Assembly: GCA_947486785.1 (NCBI GenBank)
Contig: CANKUU010000001.1
Span: 62,001-126,000 of the forward strand
DNA from: an uncultured Flavobacteriaceae bacterium
GTDB lineage: Bacteria; Bacteroidota; Bacteroidia; Flavobacteriales; Flavobacteriaceae
Direction of reading: 5' to 3'
DNA length: 64,000 bases
Shown: positions 3,301 to 44,906 of the stretch, one piece after another
Numbering within the stretch: position 1 is the stretch's first letter
How the letters are laid out: each line of letters starts with the position of its first letter
Program-made: the position numbers and the translations under genes
Notes under the pieces: generated by a model
Seen by the model: the letters and a program-made list of their open reading frames with translations, nothing else
Told to the model about the DNA's origin: nothing
Databases searched by the model: none

Positions 3301-3446
3301 ACGGCTTTGTTCGTAAAAGTTATCGCTAAGATTTGACGATACGCGTCGTTCGAAGAAAGTAGTAAACGTAAATATTCTTGGGTAAGGGTATAGGTTTTTC
3401 CAGAACCTGCAGAAGCACTATATATCTTAAACGGATTGTCTTGCAC
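357..3446 (-). CDS. UvrD-family helicase with C-terminal RecB-type nuclease (AddA-like)
   Basis: This 1029-residue protein is a probable DNA double-strand-break end-processing helicase-nuclease of the AddA/RecB type. Superfamily 1 motifs occur in order: Walker A SAGSGKT (residues 12-18), motif Ia AITFTNKA, Walker B DEFQDTS (about 385), GDAKQAIYRWRGG, NYRSHKK, TIHKAKGLEF (about 711) and LYVALTRA (about 792). A PD-(D/E)XK nuclease follows, with LLHYIM (about 895), a PDRV aspartate and DYKTG (about 990). The start is GTG: a stop codon lies directly upstream and the P-loop begins ten residues in, so no other start fits. The AddB-like partner expected for this family is not in the window; kbl follows directly. 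It is divergent from the superoxide dismutase gene. The helicase-nuclease assignment is firm; the AddA name is inferred from architecture. Confidence 0.88.
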   Translation of the reverse strand: MQDNPFKIYSASAGSGKTYTLTQEYLRLLLSSNDAYRQILAITFTNKAVNEMKDRILNNLYDFSQVETIKNAPPMFVTLSQELQLDAKSLQQKAKFILKKILHNYAYFDISTIDKFTHRLIRTFAKDLKLPQNFEVVLDTQLLLQEAVSRLINKAGTDKNLTKILIAFALEKTDDNKSWDVTIDLLEIGKLLFKEDTQPHLKKLENKELDDFLEMQKGIRNKINLGHQQIKKMANKCLEIIEEKNLKFSDFTSSYFPKFLIQLKNLERKINFDAKWKKDFENTSLYTKKCPEAIKETIDSQRSNFNEYFKTLKTTWEHLNFLKNVYKNSVPLTVLGAIQKEVKSIQHERDQLPISEFNSIISNEIRDQPAPFIYERLGEKYRHYFIDEFQDTSELQWKNLIPLVDNSLSSEHGSLFLVGDAKQAIYRWRGGEAEQFLKLVNKTENPFSAAPSIENLKFNYRSHKKIVDFNNLFFTAISSYLKNTRYRHLYKTGNEQISKSEIEGLVQLTFLNKNDERSLDELNGETVLTIIKEVIEKKYNYGDICILVRNKKDGVKLADYLIQEQIAVVSSDSLLLKNSTKVNFLINLLNYLIQPHDLEFSYNLLFYLSQDDENRHAFITKNLKNIAAFFLEFYQFNVLHLSQRSVFDIMEYAIKQFKLTENSDAYINFFMDTVFDVEQKEGTSIVHFLEYWGKKKDNLSIAAPDSLNKVQIMTIHKAKGLEFDITIFPYANANLHSTKDSKIWLSVNSDNFHGFEEVLINGTKEVVHYNDLAAKLFEEENNQQELDAFNVLYVALTRASKASYIITTNEPSLESEQKSYSNLLTNYIEKQDIWNENKSSYSFGQLKPITKEKKIPEQKPLTYHYTYKDRPSFKILTKSAQLWNTNREDAIVKGNLLHYIMSFIETHNDIESALNIALRKGILQENEKEDMLSTVLKIINHSKLRIYFANGNIVKNEKAIITATGKIIRPDRVVINKDKATIIDYKTGKPNNAFKEQIYEYADALEKIGYTVENKILLYINEKITPEFI

Positions 3447-3497
3447 CTATTTTTTTTGCAAAGTACGTAATCTGCGACAGTTCTTAACAAATAATTA

Positions 3498-3529
3498 TTG
3501 CAATATGAATGTTAAAATTTGTAAATTTG
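3498..3529 (+). promoter_or_regulatory. Putative promoter of the superoxide dismutase gene
   Basis: A TTG at 3498-3500 and TAAATTTG at 3522-3529, separated by 21 nt, fit the Bacteroidota sigma-A consensus TTG-N(17-23)-TAnnTTTG. It would give a leader of about 32 nt before the ATG at 3566. Confidence 0.5.
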
Positions 3530-3565
3530 ATGAATTCTTTTTTAAAACCTTAAAACACAAAAACT

Positions 3566-4174
3566 ATGGCTTTTGAATTACCAAAATTACCTTACGCATA
3601 TGATGCTTTGGAGCCACATATTGATGCAAGAACTATGGAGATACACCATACAAAACATCACAATGGTTATACAACAAAGTTAAATTCGGCAATTGCAGGT
3701 ACAGACCTTGAAAATAAATCAATAAACGATATACTTGCGAGTTTAGACATGTCAAATGGCGCAGTAAGAAATAACGGTGGTGGGTTTTTTAATCACTCTT
3801 TGTTTTGGAGTATTATGTCTCCTAACGCCGGCGGAAGTCCATCAGGGGAATTGGCTCAAGCAATTACTGATGCATTTGGTTCGTTTGAAGAGTTTAAAAA
3901 TAAATTTAGTGCCGCAGCAGGCACAAGATTTGGTTCAGGTTGGGCTTGGTTGTGCGTGCACCCAGGAGGTAAGTTAGATATATGCTCTACTCCAAATCAA
4001 GATAATCCACTTATGCCAAATGTAGGTTGTGGGGGTCATCCTATTTTAGGTCTAGATGTTTGGGAGCATGCATACTATTTAAATTATCAAAATAGAAGAC
4101 CTGATTATGTTAATGCATTTTTTAATGTAATTAATTGGGATAAGGTTGCTGAGTTGTATTTAAAAAATAAATAA
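3566..4174 (+). CDS. sodA: Superoxide dismutase, Mn/Fe family
   Basis: This cytoplasmic enzyme of 202 residues, the usual family length, dismutates superoxide to oxygen and hydrogen peroxide. The four metal ligands are visible as H27 (MEIHH), H77 (FFNHSLFW), D164 and H168 (LDVWEHAYY), and [16 protein letters not shown] closes the C-terminal domain. The second-sphere glutamine lies in NQDNPLM at residue 145, the position used by Mn-type enzymes, rather than in the N-terminal half as in Fe-type, so Mn or cambialistic use is more likely than strict Fe. No signal peptide is present. It is a single-gene unit with its own promoter and a strong terminator just after the stop. Confidence 0.95.
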
Positions 4175-4192
4175 ATTTCTTTTGAACATATT

Positions 4193-4233
4193 TAAAAAAA
4201 AAAGCATTCGGTTAACCGAATGCTTTTTTTTTT
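4193..4233. terminator. Bidirectional intrinsic terminator after sodA
   Basis: A perfect 11-bp stem (AGCATTCGGTT paired with AACCGAATGCT, 4203-4224) is flanked by an A-run on the left and a T-run on the right. It can end sodA on the plus strand and also transcripts arriving on the minus strand. Confidence 0.85.
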
Positions 4234-4240
4234 AAATAGA

Positions 4241-4312
4241 AAAGGGCGAAGTAAACTCCACCCTTTTCGTCCCAAATCTTACCATAAACTTAACCTACTT
4301 ATGCTATGGCGG
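4241..4312 (-). ncRNA. Small RNA-like element, copy 1 of 4
   Basis: Read on the minus strand, this element has a conserved core (CCATAGCATAAGTAGGTTAA, then GTTTATGG), a short AAGATTTGGG linker and a terminator hairpin with T-run. The core ends CCATA/TATGG can pair around a conserved loop. The terminator stem GGGTGGAGT/ACTTCGCCC pairs completely only on the minus strand, using two G-U wobbles; on the plus strand these become C-A mismatches. The stem sequence is unrelated to that of copies 2-4, so only structure is conserved there. The 5' end is uncertain, since upstream sequence does not match copies 2 and 3. It may belong to the Flavo-1 RNA class of Flavobacteria, which I cannot confirm from memory. 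Confidence 0.6.
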
Positions 4313-4442
4313 CACTAAATTACTGGTATTGTATTAAATAAAAAAGAAATTTGGCTCTTTTTTAAGATCTTAATTTTTGAATATTTTTCTTAAAAAGTAG
4401 ATAAATTGAGGCTAACTATATCAAATATAGGGGTTTAAAAAT

Positions 4443-4516
4443 AAAAAAGGCAGAGCATTGCTCCGCCTTTTTCCCCAAATCTTACCATGAACTTAACCTA
4501 CTTATGCTATGGTTCC
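4443..4516 (-). ncRNA. Small RNA-like element, copy 2 of 4
   Basis: Minus-strand element with the same core as copy 1 (ACCATAGCATAAGTAGGTTA, then AGTTCATGGTAAG) followed by GGGG and the terminator stem GGCGGAGC/GCTCTGCC around AAT, ending in a T-run. ACCAT and ATGGT can pair around the conserved loop. The stem has one G-U wobble on the minus strand where the plus strand has an A-C mismatch. A TAnnTTTG box lies just upstream at 4518-4525, giving a predicted RNA of about 70 nt. Homology with copy 3 continues for about 80 nt upstream of the core, so the promoter was copied with the element. Confidence 0.65.
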
Positions 4517-4517
4517 T

Positions 4518-4525
4518 CAAAAATA
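4518..4525 (-). promoter_or_regulatory. -7 box of small RNA copy 2
   Basis: TATTTTTG on the minus strand matches TAnnTTTG and lies a few bases before the predicted RNA 5' end. The same box stands at the same place in copy 3 (4901-4908). A TTG about 16 nt upstream in copy 2 is TTA in copy 3, so the -33 element is weak. Confidence 0.4.
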
Positions 4526-4727
4526 TATCATTTTTAGGGCCAAAAATAGGATTTTAGTTGAACTCCTGAAATAAGTGGTTAAAGCACCAAAAAATCGTTT
4601 TTACTTTAATTAGTAGTCAGATTATTCAGTCTAAAAAAGTTTTATTATCTAAATAATTAATTAGAATTAATTACCATAATCGTGTTGAATTTTACTACCA
4701 CATAATTTTTAGCTTAAGTTTCATTAA

Positions 4728-4829
4728 TTAAATGAATTCTTCCGTAAGTATGTTCATTTAGAAGGTGTACTTGTTGGTGCGCATTTTGAAGTAAATGACA
4801 ATTATGATGTTGTTGGTGTTTTTAAATAA
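4728..4829 (+). pseudogene. Coding remnant (C-terminal fragment of an unrecognised protein)
   Basis: Directly left of the copy 3 terminator, a stop-bounded frame of 33 codons without an ATG reads LNEFFRKYVHLEG, then VLVGAHFEVNDNYDVVGVFK and a stop. The composition looks protein-like. A second tract at 5976-6053, next to copy 4, ends in the similar VNNNYGVVVFLK and stop. The two probably descend from one gene end duplicated with the RNA element. I do not recognise the family. Confidence 0.35.
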
Positions 4830-4899
4830 AAAGGCGGAGCATTGCCCCGCCTTTTCCCCAAATCTTACCATGAACTTAACCTACTTATGCTATGGTTCC
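4829..4899 (-). ncRNA. Small RNA-like element, copy 3 of 4
   Basis: Minus-strand element with a core identical to copy 2. The terminator stem GGCGGGGC/GCTCCGCC pairs fully on the minus strand through a G-U wobble at a position different from that in copy 2; the plus strand has an A-C mismatch there. Homology with copy 2 extends upstream through the promoter region, and with copy 4 downstream past the terminator into the coding remnant. Confidence 0.65.
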
Positions 4900-4900
4900 T

Positions 4901-4908
4901 CAAAAATA
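4901..4908 (-). promoter_or_regulatory. -7 box of small RNA copy 3
   Basis: TATTTTTG on the minus strand, in the same relation to the core as in copy 2. No clear TTG is seen at the -33 distance. Confidence 0.4.
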
Positions 4909-5243
4909 TATCATCTTCAGGGTTAAAAATAAAATCTTGGTTGAACTCCTAAAATAGGTAGTTAAAGTGTCCAAAAATCACCTTTAGCATAAAGAGTTTA
5001 AAGAATATGTAATATTTGTAAACTAAAAAACAATCGATTGAAGCCTTTTGATTAAGGTAAGTTCGATGTAAAAAAGTGAGTTTTTCTACAAGAAAAAAAT
5101 CTAAAAATAAATAAAGTATTGTATTTCAATTTTTTTTAGCTTGAATATTTCGCTGTTTTTTTGATAACTGCTGCTTATAATTCGTTCCTTTTTGGCAAAA
5201 TAGCCTAAGCGCTAATGGTAAAATCCACCTTCGAAATTAAAAG

Positions 5244-5900
5244 ATGTCACTTTCCGAAGTGATGGCCATACAGCAACTGTTCCACTTTTCAGGTTATTGG
5301 ATCTCAAAAAATTTAAAACTGTTATTAAATAGGTAAACATTTGGACAAGGAGTTTCTCAGTGCGGTCTTCTATACTCGTATGGAAGACCAATTGTGTATG
5401 CATCAGTTTTATAGATTCTACATGATTTAGGGTTAATAATAGACGAAGGATAAATGAACATTGAATATTTAGCGGGTTTACCCATTGGGGGTACCTTTTC
5501 TTGAGTTGGTTTTGGATTTATATTGCTTTTTTCACAAACCAATTTGGACAACCGCCGTCCATAGCTCTTAAAATCGTTTATCAAAAAATGATAGGTGATG
5601 CTCTTAGGAGACAAAGGGTATGAACCAAAAGAAACTATTCACTAATTCCTTAAGTGGGTTGCACCTGGTAGCCTAACTTCGAATGAACATGAAAACCAAA
5701 CTACGCATGCCAATTGTCGATGCTCGCCAGTTGAGAAAACGAGTAATCATAGAAACCATATTCAATTAGTTCCAACACCTATGTCAAGTGAAACACGCTT
5801 AACGTAGGAGTCAAGCAAACGATTTTAATTCGATATTCTTCGCTTTGAATGCCTACAGATTTAAAGACAAAATACCTTTCTTGAAAAACAAGTTGGTTAC
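5244..5900 (+). pseudogene. Decayed IS982-family transposase
   Basis: Blocks characteristic of IS982-family transposases occur in the right order on the plus strand but in different frames and with stops between them. They are MSLSEVMAIQQLFHFSGYW (from 5244), ISFIDST (5402-5422) with NNRRRINEH after a stop, GDKGYEPKETI (5607 on), NMKTKLRMPIVDARQLRKR (from 5686) with VIIETIFN, then FQHLCQVKHA and RRSQANDFNSIFFALNAYRF. In intact relatives the matching motifs are LSEVMTI..FHLSGY, FIDST, DKGY, NMKNKLM, LLRKR..IETV and QIEHSRHRS. At least five stops and several frameshifts rule out function. The first 60 or so residues and the terminal inverted repeats were not found. It lies between RNA copies 3 and 4. 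Confidence 0.75.
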
Positions 5901-5975
5901 TACCAATCAATTATATTTTTTAGCTCTAGTTATATCGAAATCACCTTAAAATATAAAAAACACTTTCGATTTTGA

Positions 5976-6053
5976 GCTAATTCATTAGATGTTAATGGGG
6001 TTGAGGGTTTTTTGGTAAATAACAATTATGGTGTTGTAGTTTTTTTAAAATAA
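5976..6053 (+). pseudogene. Second coding remnant beside RNA copy 4
   Basis: A stop-bounded frame of 25 codons without an ATG ends in GFLVNNNYGVVVFLK and a stop that touches the copy 4 terminator. It resembles the remnant at 4728-4829 at protein and DNA level; the shared block around GTAAATxACAATTATG is clear. No family is recognised. Confidence 0.3.
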
Positions 6054-6122
6054 AAAGGCGGAGCATTGCTCCGCCTTTTCCCCAAATCTTACCATGAACT
6101 TAACCTACTTATGCTATGGTAG
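6052..6122 (-). ncRNA. Small RNA-like element, copy 4 of 4
   Basis: The core is the same as in copies 2 and 3, and the terminator stem GGCGGAGC/GCTCCGCC is perfect on both strands. Upstream sequence differs from copies 2 and 3 and has no clear TAnnTTTG box. Because it lies about 100 nt downstream of the PurF-like gene on the same strand, it could be released from that mRNA's 3' end and also serve as its terminator. Confidence 0.6.
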
Positions 6123-6224
6123 CGGCTAATGTAGTTGAGTGTTGTATCATTATATTATAAATTCGCTAAATAGCTATATTTCTCGTTAAAAGGTTTAATT
6201 AGTGGTATTTCATCTCCAATAGTG

Positions 6225-8123
6225 TTAATATGCTCTTTGATTTTTACCCTCAAAAAAGTTTATAAATGCTCTATTTACAACCCTATTTCCTCCAGCAGTA
6301 GGGTAATTTCCTGTAAAATACCAATCGCCCAAATTTTTAGGACAGGCTTGATGAAGGTTTTCAATAGTTTGATATATAATTTGAACCTCTGCTTTGATAT
6401 CACTTGAACTAAGAAGTTCACCTGTTTTTGATGATATTTCTTGGGCTGTAAAAGGGGCATAAAATTCTTTTACATAATTAAGGATATCTGTATCTTGCGA
6501 GTTTACTTGTTTTAGGCATTTTTTATAAATATCTTCAACTAAATGCATGGTCTCTCTTTCTTGATGTAAGGCTAGAGCAGCTTTAAAGGCAATAAAATCT
6601 TCTAGTTTTGCCATGTCTATACCATAACAATCTGGATATCTAATCTGTGGTGCTGATGAAACTACAATGATCTTCTTTGGTGAAAGCCGATCTAAAATAC
6701 GTAGGATACTTTTCTTTAAAGTGGTTCCTCTAACGATGCTATCGTCAATAATAACAAGGTTATCTCCTTGTTTAACCGAGCCGTAAGAAATGTCGTAAAC
6801 ATGAGCAACTAAATCGTCTCTACTACTATCTTGAGTAATAAAAGTTCGCAGTTTTGCATCTTTAATAGCTACCTTTTCTATCCTTGGCCTAACTTCTAAA
6901 ATTTTATGAAGTTGTTCTCTAGTGATTGATGAGCCAATTTCGAGTATTTGCTCTTCTTTATTTTTGTTTAAATAGTTTTGCGCTTCTTTTACCATTCCAA
7001 AGAAAGAAGTTTCTGCGGTATTGGGAATATAAGAAAAGACCGTATTTTTTATGTCATTATTTATTGCTTTCAATATCTGGGGAAATAGTAGTTTACCCAG
7101 TTCTTTTCGTTCTTGATATATTTCTTTATCGCTTCCTCTCGAGAAGTAAATTCGTTCAAAAGAACAAGCTTTTCTTTCGGTAGGTTCAAGAACCTCTTTA
7201 ATGGCGGTGGTACCATTTTTTTTGATGATTATGGCGTGGCCAGGATCTAATTCTTTAACCTTATCATATGCTACGTTAAATACCGTTTGTATGGCAGGGC
7301 GTTCTGATGCTACTACAACTATTTCGTCATCTTTATAATAATATGCGGGTCGTATGCCTGCCGGATCTCTTAATACAAAGGCATCTCCGTGCCCTATTAG
7401 GCCAGACATGGCATAGCCACCATCAAAATTTTTCGCAGCCCTTCTTAAAATTTTAGCAACGTTTAAGCGGTCTCCAATTATAGTACTTGCCTCTTGTTTG
7501 GTATAGCCTTCTTTTTTTATTTGTTTGTATAATTTTGCAACCGCATCATCTAAAAAGTGTCCTATTTTTTCCATTACGGTAACCGTGTCCGCCATCTCTT
7601 TAGGATGTTGCCCCAGCTGAACTAAATTATCAAAAAGCTCGTGAACATTTGTCATATTAAAATTACCCGCAACAATTAGATTTCGATGCATCCAATTATT
7701 CTGACGTATAAAAGGGTGCACACTTTCGATACTATTTTTTCCAAATGTACCGTACCGTACATGACCTAGCAGAACTTCGCCAATATAGGGGATATGTTTT
7801 TTTTGTAAGGCAACATCATCGGCATATGAAGGGTTTTCTGTTAATGCGGTATTAATGCGTTCATTAATTTGTGCAAAAATATCTTGAATTGGCTTTTGAG
7901 CATTGGAGCGAACCCTGCTCATATAGCGCTCTCCGGCATTCATATCTAATTTTATACTCGCAAAACCAGCACCATCTTGTCCACGATTGTGCTGTTTTTC
8001 CATCATCAAATACATTTTGTTTACACCGTAAAATGCTGTTCCGTACTTTTCTTTATAATATGCTAATGGTTTTAACAGTCGTATTACAGATATACCACAT
8101 TCATGTTTAATCGCGTCGCTCAT
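6225..8123 (-). CDS. Amidophosphoribosyltransferase-like protein (long PurF form)
   Basis: The protein has 632 residues, against roughly 450-510 for standard PurF. An N-terminal class II glutamine amidotransferase domain carries the Cys nucleophile at residue 9 (HECGIS); a short leader ending in Glu before Cys is what PurF propeptides look like. RGQDGAG and GHVRYGT follow. The C-terminal phosphoribosyltransferase domain has the PRPP loop VIIDDSIVRGTT. PurF makes phosphoribosylamine from PRPP and glutamine, the first step of purine synthesis. Extra length lies in insertions within the amidotransferase half and in a C-terminal extension. Neighbours purN and a PfkB kinase support a purine or nucleoside role. 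Bacteroidota often encode such a long form; whether it is the main PurF or a paralogue cannot be told here. Confidence 0.85.
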   Translation of the reverse strand: MSDAIKHECGISVIRLLKPLAYYKEKYGTAFYGVNKMYLMMEKQHNRGQDGAGFASIKLDMNAGERYMSRVRSNAQKPIQDIFAQINERINTALTENPSYADDVALQKKHIPYIGEVLLGHVRYGTFGKNSIESVHPFIRQNNWMHRNLIVAGNFNMTNVHELFDNLVQLGQHPKEMADTVTVMEKIGHFLDDAVAKLYKQIKKEGYTKQEASTIIGDRLNVAKILRRAAKNFDGGYAMSGLIGHGDAFVLRDPAGIRPAYYYKDDEIVVVASERPAIQTVFNVAYDKVKELDPGHAIIIKKNGTTAIKEVLEPTERKACSFERIYFSRGSDKEIYQERKELGKLLFPQILKAINNDIKNTVFSYIPNTAETSFFGMVKEAQNYLNKNKEEQILEIGSSITREQLHKILEVRPRIEKVAIKDAKLRTFITQDSSRDDLVAHVYDISYGSVKQGDNLVIIDDSIVRGTTLKKSILRILDRLSPKKIIVVSSAPQIRYPDCYGIDMAKLEDFIAFKAALALHQERETMHLVEDIYKKCLKQVNSQDTDILNYVKEFYAPFTAQEISSKTGELLSSSDIKAEVQIIYQTIENLHQACPKNLGDWYFTGNYPTAGGNRVVNRAFINFFEGKNQRAY

Positions 8124-10435: not shown

Positions 10436-10677
10436 AAGAAGTGGATTTATTTAAAGCAAAATACTATTAGTATTTTAATTATTAATATGAGTTTAGAATT
10501 ACCAAAAAGAAAAATACAGAACGCGCACTTAAATAATTCAATAGTCTGTCATCAAAATTCTCTTATATTTCAATGTTATTGAAGAAAAATTTAAAGCTAA
10601 ATTAGCACACTTGAATTTAATTTGATTAAATTCGACTACATTTTAACGTCAAAATGTGTTATTCAAACAAAGTTTTT

Positions 10678-43268: not shown

Positions 43269-44906
43269 TTACGTAAGAACAGGAATTTTAAGTTTTCTTT
43301 GTTTAAAACGTAAGCTAAACGCAGTACCAGATTCTGAAGAAGAATATTCATAGGTTGCTTCAAGTTGTCTACAAAGTTTTTTAATAATTGCATAACCTAA
43401 ACCCTCATTTTCGTTAAGATCTCTAGTGGCAGAAATACCTTGACCATTGTCAGAAATTACAATATCTAGTACATCGTTTTTCATTTGCGTTACTAGAATA
43501 TATAGCTGGTTTGTAGCATCATCTTCTACAAAGGCGTGTTTTATAGCATTTACCACAATCTCAGAAGTAATTATAGCTAACGGAACAGCAGTATCAAGAT
43601 CAATGTACACTTCTTTACAATCAATAGTGTAATTTAACGAGGGTAAAATGTTTTTATGACTCAGAACCAAGTTTTCAAGATATTTTTTTAGATCAACAGC
43701 ATTTGCGCCTTCATGCTGATATATTTTTTTATGAATTAGTGCAATTGCATTAATGCGATCTTGACTACTAGATAGGGCGTAAATCGCCTTTTGATCTTGT
43801 AACTTTCGTTTCTGAAGATTCATTAAGCTTGAAGTGATCTGCAGATTATTCTTAACTCTATGGTGTATTTCTCGGAGTAAGTTTTCTTTTTGCTTGTTTG
43901 ATATTTCTAGTTCTTTATTACGTTGTAAAACACGTACTTCTTTTTCTTTGCGGTGGTCTTCTACTCGTTTTAAATTTATAACAATTAATGCTGTGGTAAG
44001 AATGCCAAAAATCAGCACAAAATAAGACGAAAAAATATGAGGAAAGCCTAAATAAGCCTCTTTTGGGTAGTAAGTAATTTCCCAAACTCTGTTAGCAGCT
44101 TTAATACTGGTAGTTCGGTTGTTTTCGGTGTTTTTATAAACCGTTTCATTGTCGTGACTATTAAATAGAAGAGAGTTTTCAACTTCTTGGTCATATATAA
44201 CAAGATCTAAAACATCGATTTCGGTACTTAAAGTTTTTTCTAGAAATTGATCCATCCTATACACTACCGCAACAACCCCTTTTTCAACTATTCCATTAGG
44301 TTCAAATACTGTTTTAACTGCTAAAAATCCGGGCAGATTGTGGTCTTTAACTAAAACTATAGGAGCTGTAAAAGTTAATTTCTTTGATTTACTTGATGTT
44401 AAAATAGCCGATTTTCTGTTCGCTTCTGAATAAAGATCATAGCCAGAAACCCATTTTCTATCTGGTGGATTGACTAAAGCAATAGGATAATAAAGCTCTT
44501 TGTGTTTTGACATTACCAAATCGTTAGCTTCATTTGCTTCTTTAATGGTTGGAATAAAGCTATCAGAAGTAACCTCTTGTTTTAAATTATCTGATTCTAA
44601 AAGTTTTGGAGCCCATTCTAATGCTTTAATACCTTTTAAATCTTCTTTAAAAGGGTCTGTATAGGCTTGAAAAAGACTATCAGAAATAGTAGTCGAATTT
44701 TCAAAAAGAAAAGACATCGATTCAATAACCCGATTTATTTTATGTAACTCAGATTTTATTTTAAATTCTGTTTTGGTGATCGCGTTCTCTACGGTGATTT
44801 TATTTTTCTCAATTATTTTATCATTGATCAGATAAAACAGAAGTAAGGAAATGAAAATACCAACTAGGGAAATAGAGGAATATCTCAGTATAGGGTAGTT
44901 CTTCAT
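43269..44906 (-). CDS. CHASE-domain sensor histidine kinase (HisKA_2 type)
   Basis: This 545-residue membrane kinase has an N-terminal helix (about 9-27), an extracellular CHASE domain (about 55-255, IKALEWAPKLLES and YPIALVNPPDRKWVSGYDLYSE), a second helix (about 285-307) and a coiled linker. The HisKA_2 dimerisation domain with the phosphorylated His in REIHHRVKNNLQITSSLM (about 348) and a HATPase_c domain (NAIKHAF, ISDNGQGI, LGYAIIKKLCRQL) follow. CHASE domains bind small extracellular ligands. No response regulator is adjacent, so the partner is encoded elsewhere. Confidence 0.88.
   Translation of the reverse strand: MKNYPILRYSSISLVGIFISLLLFYLINDKIIEKNKITVENAITKTEFKIKSELHKINRVIESMSFLFENSTTISDSLFQAYTDPFKEDLKGIKALEWAPKLLESDNLKQEVTSDSFIPTIKEANEANDLVMSKHKELYYPIALVNPPDRKWVSGYDLYSEANRKSAILTSSKSKKLTFTAPIVLVKDHNLPGFLAVKTVFEPNGIVEKGVVAVVYRMDQFLEKTLSTEIDVLDLVIYDQEVENSLLFNSHDNETVYKNTENNRTTSIKAANRVWEITYYPKEAYLGFPHIFSSYFVLIFGILTTALIVINLKRVEDHRKEKEVRVLQRNKELEISNKQKENLLREIHHRVKNNLQITSSLMNLQKRKLQDQKAIYALSSSQDRINAIALIHKKIYQHEGANAVDLKKYLENLVLSHKNILPSLNYTIDCKEVYIDLDTAVPLAIITSEIVVNAIKHAFVEDDATNQLYILVTQMKNDVLDIVISDNGQGISATRDLNENEGLGYAIIKKLCRQLEATYEYSSSESGTAFSLRFKQRKLKIPVLT

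Follow-up and report, generated by a model that had tools for sequence, protein, structure and literature searches.

A tandem array of four putative small RNA genes between purF and sod in a Flavobacteriaceae genome

Introduction

In Bacteroides thetaiotaomicron, the small RNAs (sRNAs) FopS/GibS are described as multicopy transcripts of ~65 to 70 nt with a constant 5′ part, housekeeping-type promoters, and a terminal terminator (PMC11697453). The streptococcal csRNAs and the LhrC RNAs of Listeria are likewise described as sets of several near-identical sRNAs, placed under the two-component response regulators CiaR and LisR, respectively (PMC4507080, PMC4132741). For the family Flavobacteriaceae itself, the Rfp RNAs of Flavobacterium psychrophilum are reported, some of them conserved in other species, and Flavo-1 (RF01705) is given as a candidate RNA motif (PMC9723704). 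Here we analyze a stretch of 64,000 nucleotides from an uncultured Flavobacteriaceae bacterium (contig CANKUU010000001.1, positions 62,001 to 126,000; hereafter the window), in which four copies of a short element lie between a purF-type gene and a superoxide dismutase gene (sod) and read as an array of sRNA genes. Flavobacteriaceae are major degraders of polymers in marine environments, and to our knowledge RNA regulation in this family has been little studied.

Judging from their sequence and its conservation, the four copies are very probably transcribed small RNA genes. The explanation toward which we lean is a four-gene tandem array of one trans-acting sRNA of ~70 nt, each gene with its own promoter and terminator and the RNA pairing with mRNAs. 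It apparently represents a real sRNA family of the Flavobacteriaceae, uncatalogued by the searches made here.

Results

The original prediction had placed four copies of a near-invariant core in one direction on the minus strand, each followed by a terminator hairpin, and on re-reading of the window all four are seen at the places claimed. The units, with limits read from promoter-like box to terminator, are as follows.

4239..4310, minus strand: sRNA copy c1, 72 nt, sod-proximal, subtype C, GGGACGAAAAGGG
4315..4322, minus strand: −7-like box of c1, TAATTTAG, 5 nt before CCATAGC
4443..4513, minus strand: sRNA copy c2, 71 nt, subtype B terminator
4518..4525, minus strand: −7-like box of c2, TATTTTTG, by sequence
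4828..4896, minus strand: sRNA copy c3, 69 nt, subtype B terminator
4901..4908, minus strand: −7-like box of c3, TATTTTTG, by sequence
6052..6120, minus strand: sRNA copy c4, 69 nt, purF-proximal, B-like terminator
6126..6133, minus strand: −7-like box of c4, TACATTAG, 6 nt before CCATAGC

All four share one layout, in which a TAnnTTTG-like box 5 to 6 nt before CCATAGC is followed by a purine start, a core of ~40 nt, and a closing hairpin with a T run. Over the first 40 nt counted from CCATAGC only positions 24 and 40 vary, both in c1, and the c1 terminator hairpin is unlike those of the other three copies in sequence. The promoter-like sequence first noted as common to c2 and c3 is borne out (157 nt in common at 82%, promoter sequence included), but promoter-like boxes are found at c1 and c4 too. 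Copies c3 and c4 have 141 nt in common at 84%; since c3 is similar to both c2 and c4, local duplication or conversion also occurred. A BLAST search of the source genome finds these four as the only full copies, and its three further matches are the same terminators on the opposite strand.

The earlier observation is correct and understated: the core, whose lack of conservation outside this locus had been named beforehand as refuting, recurs across the Flavobacteriaceae. A BLASTN survey with c4 (E≤0.001) gave a match in 310 of 396 sampled family genomes, source genome included, a few of the weakest of which could rest on the terminator alone; copy numbers from this survey are lower bounds because two candidates per genome were scored. 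Moreover, chance is excluded as the source of the core because its exact 23-mer occurs in at least 117 stretches of genome_contigs, some of them from one genome. We take the titles of these stretches, among the matches listed, to denote Flavobacteriaceae genera or Flavobacteriales or Bacteroidetes metagenome-assembled genomes (MAGs), with the exception of one MAG titled Algicola, a gammaproteobacterial name, which is taken as a labelling matter. When 36 family genomes were chosen for a weak or missing match, 34 matched at E≤1 and 21 below 1e-8, and the other 15 held no convincing copy. A covariance model built from 49 copies matched 32 Flavobacteriaceae genomes and one other, a false match, among 246 genomes of the order, and 26 among 296 genomes of the phylum, all 26 in Flavobacteriaceae; these scans used stricter filters than the family survey, and their unmatched genomes are only partly listed. 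No convincing match outside the family was found in these order and phylum scans, the only such candidate (in G411, E 4e-4) being a plain terminator after a coding gene. One genome, G024, has a strong match (C2:1751402-1751475, minus strand, E 3.4e-15) ~1.5 Mb from its two main copies.

The suggestion that the core might belong to Flavo-1 did not survive. An Rfam covariance scan (cmscan) of the entire window found no family at the gathering cut-off, and the same scan of positions 3400-6300 at E≤10 returned 43 weak matches, all below gathering scores and none of them Flavo-1; Flavo-1 and the other Rfam families were therefore rejected. Ten relative loci gave one tRNA and otherwise nothing at cut-off. 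The string CATAAGTAGGTTAAG was not found in the open-access literature searched, and open-access literature on Rfp18, Flavobacteriaceae sRNAs, sod or purF sRNAs, and metatranscriptome small RNAs held nothing recognisable as the array sRNA.

Of 428 deduplicated copies, 246 have A and 182 have G directly before CCATA; 416 carry a TAnnTT box, in 410 of them 5 to 7 nt away. The purine is the expected transcription start. Each gene is drawn here as a predicted unit that has a Bacteroidota-type promoter box and an intrinsic terminator of its own. That the copies are stand-alone, small-RNA-like genes and not gene parts agrees with these boxes and terminators and with conservation far beyond the locus. 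A peptide reading was rejected by inspection: a short frame with an ATG start extends from the core into the terminator and varies in length between copies.

The full-length RNA folds into two stem-loops and does so far more stably than shuffles (z −5.0 for c4, −3.6 for c1). It would consist of a weak 5′ hairpin with a near-constant loop AAGUAGGUUAAG, a near-constant linker AGAUUUGGGG, and then the terminator. The terminator varies in sequence, yet of 431 distinct regions 428 retain 8 bp or more. Pairing of the left arm of the 5′ hairpin is kept in 54 of 55 distinct 5′ regions, versus 40% with the left arm shuffled. The left arm varies among 38 more divergent copies, in which UAGGUUAA and UGGU are constant, although constancy of the searched parts is partly selected because the search required GTAGGTTAA (≤1 error) and TTTGGG; UGGU was not required. 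Among 358 copies chosen by exact positions 1-23, positions 25-30, which are not part of that stretch, are the same in at least 356. Both loop and linker are nevertheless changeable, because one copy that has clearly diverged, and that lies between matches to purF and sod (L394:1499-1575, plus strand), differs in both, with loop AAGTGGGTTAAG and linker AGATTTGGAAC.

By the letters 3′ of the linker, the 428 copies divide into subtypes A (172), B (159), and C (92), with 5 others. Subtype C stands last in its array in 91 of 92 cases, 137 of 159 B copies occupy middle positions, and 136 of 172 A copies come first, where single copies were counted as first and arrays may be cut by locus ends. The subtypes look like old paralogs holding their places. 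In the window, c1 is of subtype C and c2 to c4 carry B-type terminators.

A TTyrnC motif occurs twice 5′ of copies, at about −71 and −50, the two 20 to 22 nt apart. The window has this pair at c2, c3, and c4, and none at c1.

4557..4583, minus strand: direct repeat pair 5′ of c2, TTTAAC (4578-4583) and TTCAAC (4557-4562), 21 nt apart
4940..4966, minus strand: direct repeat pair 5′ of c3, TTTAAC (4961-4966) and TTCAAC (4940-4945), 21 nt apart
6165..6190, minus strand: direct repeat pair 5′ of c4, TTTAAC (6185-6190) and TTTAGC (6165-6170), 20 nt apart

Over the copies counted, the pair is found at 81 of 143 A copies, 132 of 159 B copies, 16 of 28 Flavobacterium-like copies, and 0 of 91 C copies, against mononucleotide-shuffle means of 0.1 to 0.4 with a maximum of 3, counts that are not a blind test because the motif was noticed in the same sequences. 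Subtype C serves as an internal negative, and the Flavobacterium-like copies have a second common spacing of 13, in 11 of 28. Sites of the LytTR family are described as two direct repeats just upstream of the promoter, with 11 to 13 bp between 9-bp repeats; the array repeats match in spacing (20 to 22 nt centre to centre) and place, but the letters of their half-sites bear only a loose resemblance to those published (PMC6193735, PMC4227749). We think it fairly likely, from this geometry, that a two-half-site activator, probably of the LytTR class, drives most A and B copies; in the window, a response regulator, most likely a LytTR-type one, would then activate c2, c3, and c4. Copy c1 belongs to a subtype whose promoter region, also conserved, is a different one and is without the repeats, so the array could add up two inputs.

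A site model made from the copies gave 65 matches in samples of four genomes with the array masked, 18 of them (15 promoters) within 200 nt upstream of a gene, as compared with 6/61, 5/62, 2/54, 1/38, and 2/32 upstream matches for five altered models. The same direct-repeat site is present elsewhere, at L275:5457 (+), L271:1996 and 5106 (+), L308:11369 (−), and L349:11124 (+), and the genes behind these sites, judged by their protein starts, include one for a response regulator, one that is fabH-like, and others for exported proteins; perhaps these form a wider regulon of the same activator. A weaker site in the window, at 10638 (+) (score 14.9, first model), precedes an acyl carrier protein gene by ~50 nt.

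The near-constant strand of loop and linker is taken as the active part. Most likely it would pair with a modest number of mRNAs at their start regions and so block or change their translation in the manner of FopS and the csRNAs, with several copies raising dose and permitting different control. By analogy with those systems, pairing with mRNAs in trans is somewhat favored as the main mode of action. Start regions were tested in 864 kb of the source genome, 0.4 Mb of G395, 0.8 Mb of G531, and 0.4 Mb of G509, the last two taken as Flavobacterium-like by guess; genes were called from the first ATG at ≥80 or ≥120 amino acids, and all of the start-region tests are weakened because the calls were this simple.

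Several results weigh against an array of mRNA-pairing sRNAs under a LytTR-type activator, beyond the manner in which the TTyrnC motif was found. The source genome encodes seven LytTR proteins, and none of their loci has a site at the cut-off of 14 applied elsewhere in the analysis (best score 12.0), which makes the activator class a reasoned guess. The 5′ part alone is no stabler than shuffles (z −1.0 and −1.1; 33 and 26 of 200 as good), and alignment A2 shows a nearly invariant 5′ helix with no covariation. Start regions of sod have a mean pairing z of −0.33, with 3 of 81 below −2, and 22 SusC-type start regions (the usable ones of 30 loci, some start picks being doubtful) were no better than 324 background genes (p 0.17-0.87). 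The 8-mer CCTACTTA was enriched post hoc and then recurred in 0 of 298 genes in new source-genome stretches and 1 of 320 in a relative, and this signal was withdrawn because it did not replicate. Finally, a global k-mer test of start regions was not significant, no RNA part ranking below 64 of 1000 shuffles.

The linker complement CCCAAATC was counted 3, 1, and 2 times in sense versus 0 in antisense in three Flavobacterium-like samples, 0 and 0 times in two source-genome samples, and once in G395, a weak sense-only excess in Flavobacterium-like start regions that is a lead only. The core complement, searched in the source genome as a 21-mer with ≤3 mismatches, gave the four copies and one site inside an epimerase-like gene, rejected as a target and taken as chance. 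The exact 11-mer loop complement gave the four copies only in the source genome, and in eight genomes of the genus 43 matches, array copies included, versus 55 for the reversed pattern. In the window, the start region of a sensor-kinase-like gene (43269-44906, minus strand) has a 12-nt complement of the sRNA loop overlapping the start codon, possibly by chance because the 8-mer signal did not replicate.

CsrB-type RNAs act by titrating CsrA, and the array RNA could be a decoy of that kind, its loop and linker binding and titrating an RNA-binding protein with copy number as the dose. A near-constant stretch that is long rather than a short seed, several copies per locus, and start regions devoid of a seed signal all suit such a role, as does the recognition of a 41-nt FopS motif by RbpB in Bacteroides (PMC11697453). 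In the source genome, however, no protein matches RRM_1 at E≤0.001, in a search whose control, Bacteroides ihuae, gives a match; the best Bacteroidota precedent for a decoy is thus without its partner here, and we hold titration as a minority possibility.

Pairing with one conserved housekeeping RNA such as rRNA, in place of mRNAs, would suit a sequence that is near-constant across the family. Since no 16S gene was found in the source assembly, rRNA could be compared only on E. coli as a proxy, where AGGUUAAG, part of the loop, is complementary to CTTAACCT in rrnB, 8 nt each in the 16S and near the 3′ end of the 23S (L407:1602, 5037). Such runs are not above chance on that proxy, being equalled by 30 of 60 (23S) and 17 of 60 (16S) shuffled queries, and a housekeeping-RNA target is improbable.

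The genomic setting of the copies was examined in 187 fetched loci, which are not independent because several overlap or derive from one genome. The neighbours in the window are these.

3566..4174, plus strand: Fe/Mn superoxide dismutase (sod), conserved convergent neighbour, outside the RNA
4189..4238, no strand assigned: perfect inverted repeat (25 nt) in the sod-c1 interval, containing long runs of A and T
4950..6020, no strand assigned: repeat-like stretch of ~1 kb between c3 and c4, 71-74% identity to other source-genome places
6225..8123, minus strand: purF-type amidotransferase/phosphoribosyltransferase, conserved neighbour, upstream of the copies and on their strand

No locus has copies on mixed strands (0 of 187). 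Of the 187, 160 have PurF upstream on the strand of the copies and 154 have SOD downstream and convergent; 183 have at least one of the two and 131 have both. These 131 loci have one (18), two (20), three (35), four (41), five (13), or six (4) copies. Spacing between copies in relatives is mostly ~200 nt. Four loci have neither neighbour, one of which (L118) is only 1.2 kb long. In three loci from divergent genomes (L380 and L381, from one genus, and L386) a copy is flanked by other genes, and the 3 kb of each locus contain no match to SOD or PurF; hence the purF-sod place is conserved, not obligatory.

This fixed place, with the first copy starting roughly 80 to 130 nt past the PurF match in most loci listed and c1 close to the convergent end of sod, is what would be expected of cis elements, that is, terminators or regulators of purF or sod and not separate RNAs. 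Against this stand the promoter box and purine start at each copy, the repetition in up to six copies, the loci in which copies exist apart from both genes, and sod start regions without a pairing signal, and we judge cis elements unlikely. The inverted repeat at 4189-4238 is probably a terminator for both the sod and array directions.

The gene-free island of 2 kb in the original prediction owes its size partly to the repeat-like stretch between c3 and c4. This stretch is similar to two places on contigs C7 and C9 of the source genome, its two short open reading frames (ORFs) have no Pfam match, and it is probably a decayed repeat; it has the look of a decayed repeat family because the C7 place (L263) has no ORF of ≥60 amino acids across it. 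That the array as a whole is a functionless mobile or repeat element is scarcely credible, despite its tandem near-identical copies and the diverged repeat-like stretch inside it, given four copies at one locus only in the source genome, the same locus and register across the family, terminator pairing that is kept, and an exact core 21-mer present in no viral contig.

Discussion

The array RNA is present in about three-quarters of the sampled family genomes, mostly at one fixed locus, and lies under the Rfam cut-offs. Its start, loop, linker, and operator are placed precisely enough for direct deletion and testing, and should the operator prove to be a LytTR site, LytTR regulators would be tied to a core sRNA in this phylum. 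A broader possibility, tentative and in our view clearly short of probable, is that the RNA is a family-wide core regulator, its dose set by copy number and its transcription by at least two inputs, in which a nearly frozen strand of ~30 nt interacts with a single conserved partner, either a protein or a housekeeping RNA, and not with a loose mRNA regulon; it would then be CsrB- or 6S-like with a new partner.

How does the array of trans-acting sRNAs toward which we lean compare with the described systems? Flavo-1 is assigned to the same bacterial family, yet the array region has no match to it. The array RNA may be one of Rfp1-89; Rfp18, compared by description only, is described with a third stem-loop (PMC9723704), whereas the array RNA folds with two. 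Like FopS/GibS as described, it is short and multicopy, with a constant 5′ part, its own promoter by sequence, and a terminator (PMC11697453). The two, compared by description and not by sequence, differ in that the 14 FopS genes are scattered and the array copies sit together, and in that FopS binds the RRM protein RbpB and the source genome is without an RRM_1 match. FopS targets SusC start regions, of which the 22 usable here, some with doubtful start picks, gave no signal for the array RNA (PMC11697453). With the csRNAs and LhrC the array has in common several near-identical sRNA genes, in another phylum and with another sequence, and under a regulator that for the array is a prediction (PMC4507080, PMC4132741). 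In apparent mode of action, FopS of Bacteroides and these response-regulator-driven sibling sRNAs seem to be its closest counterparts.

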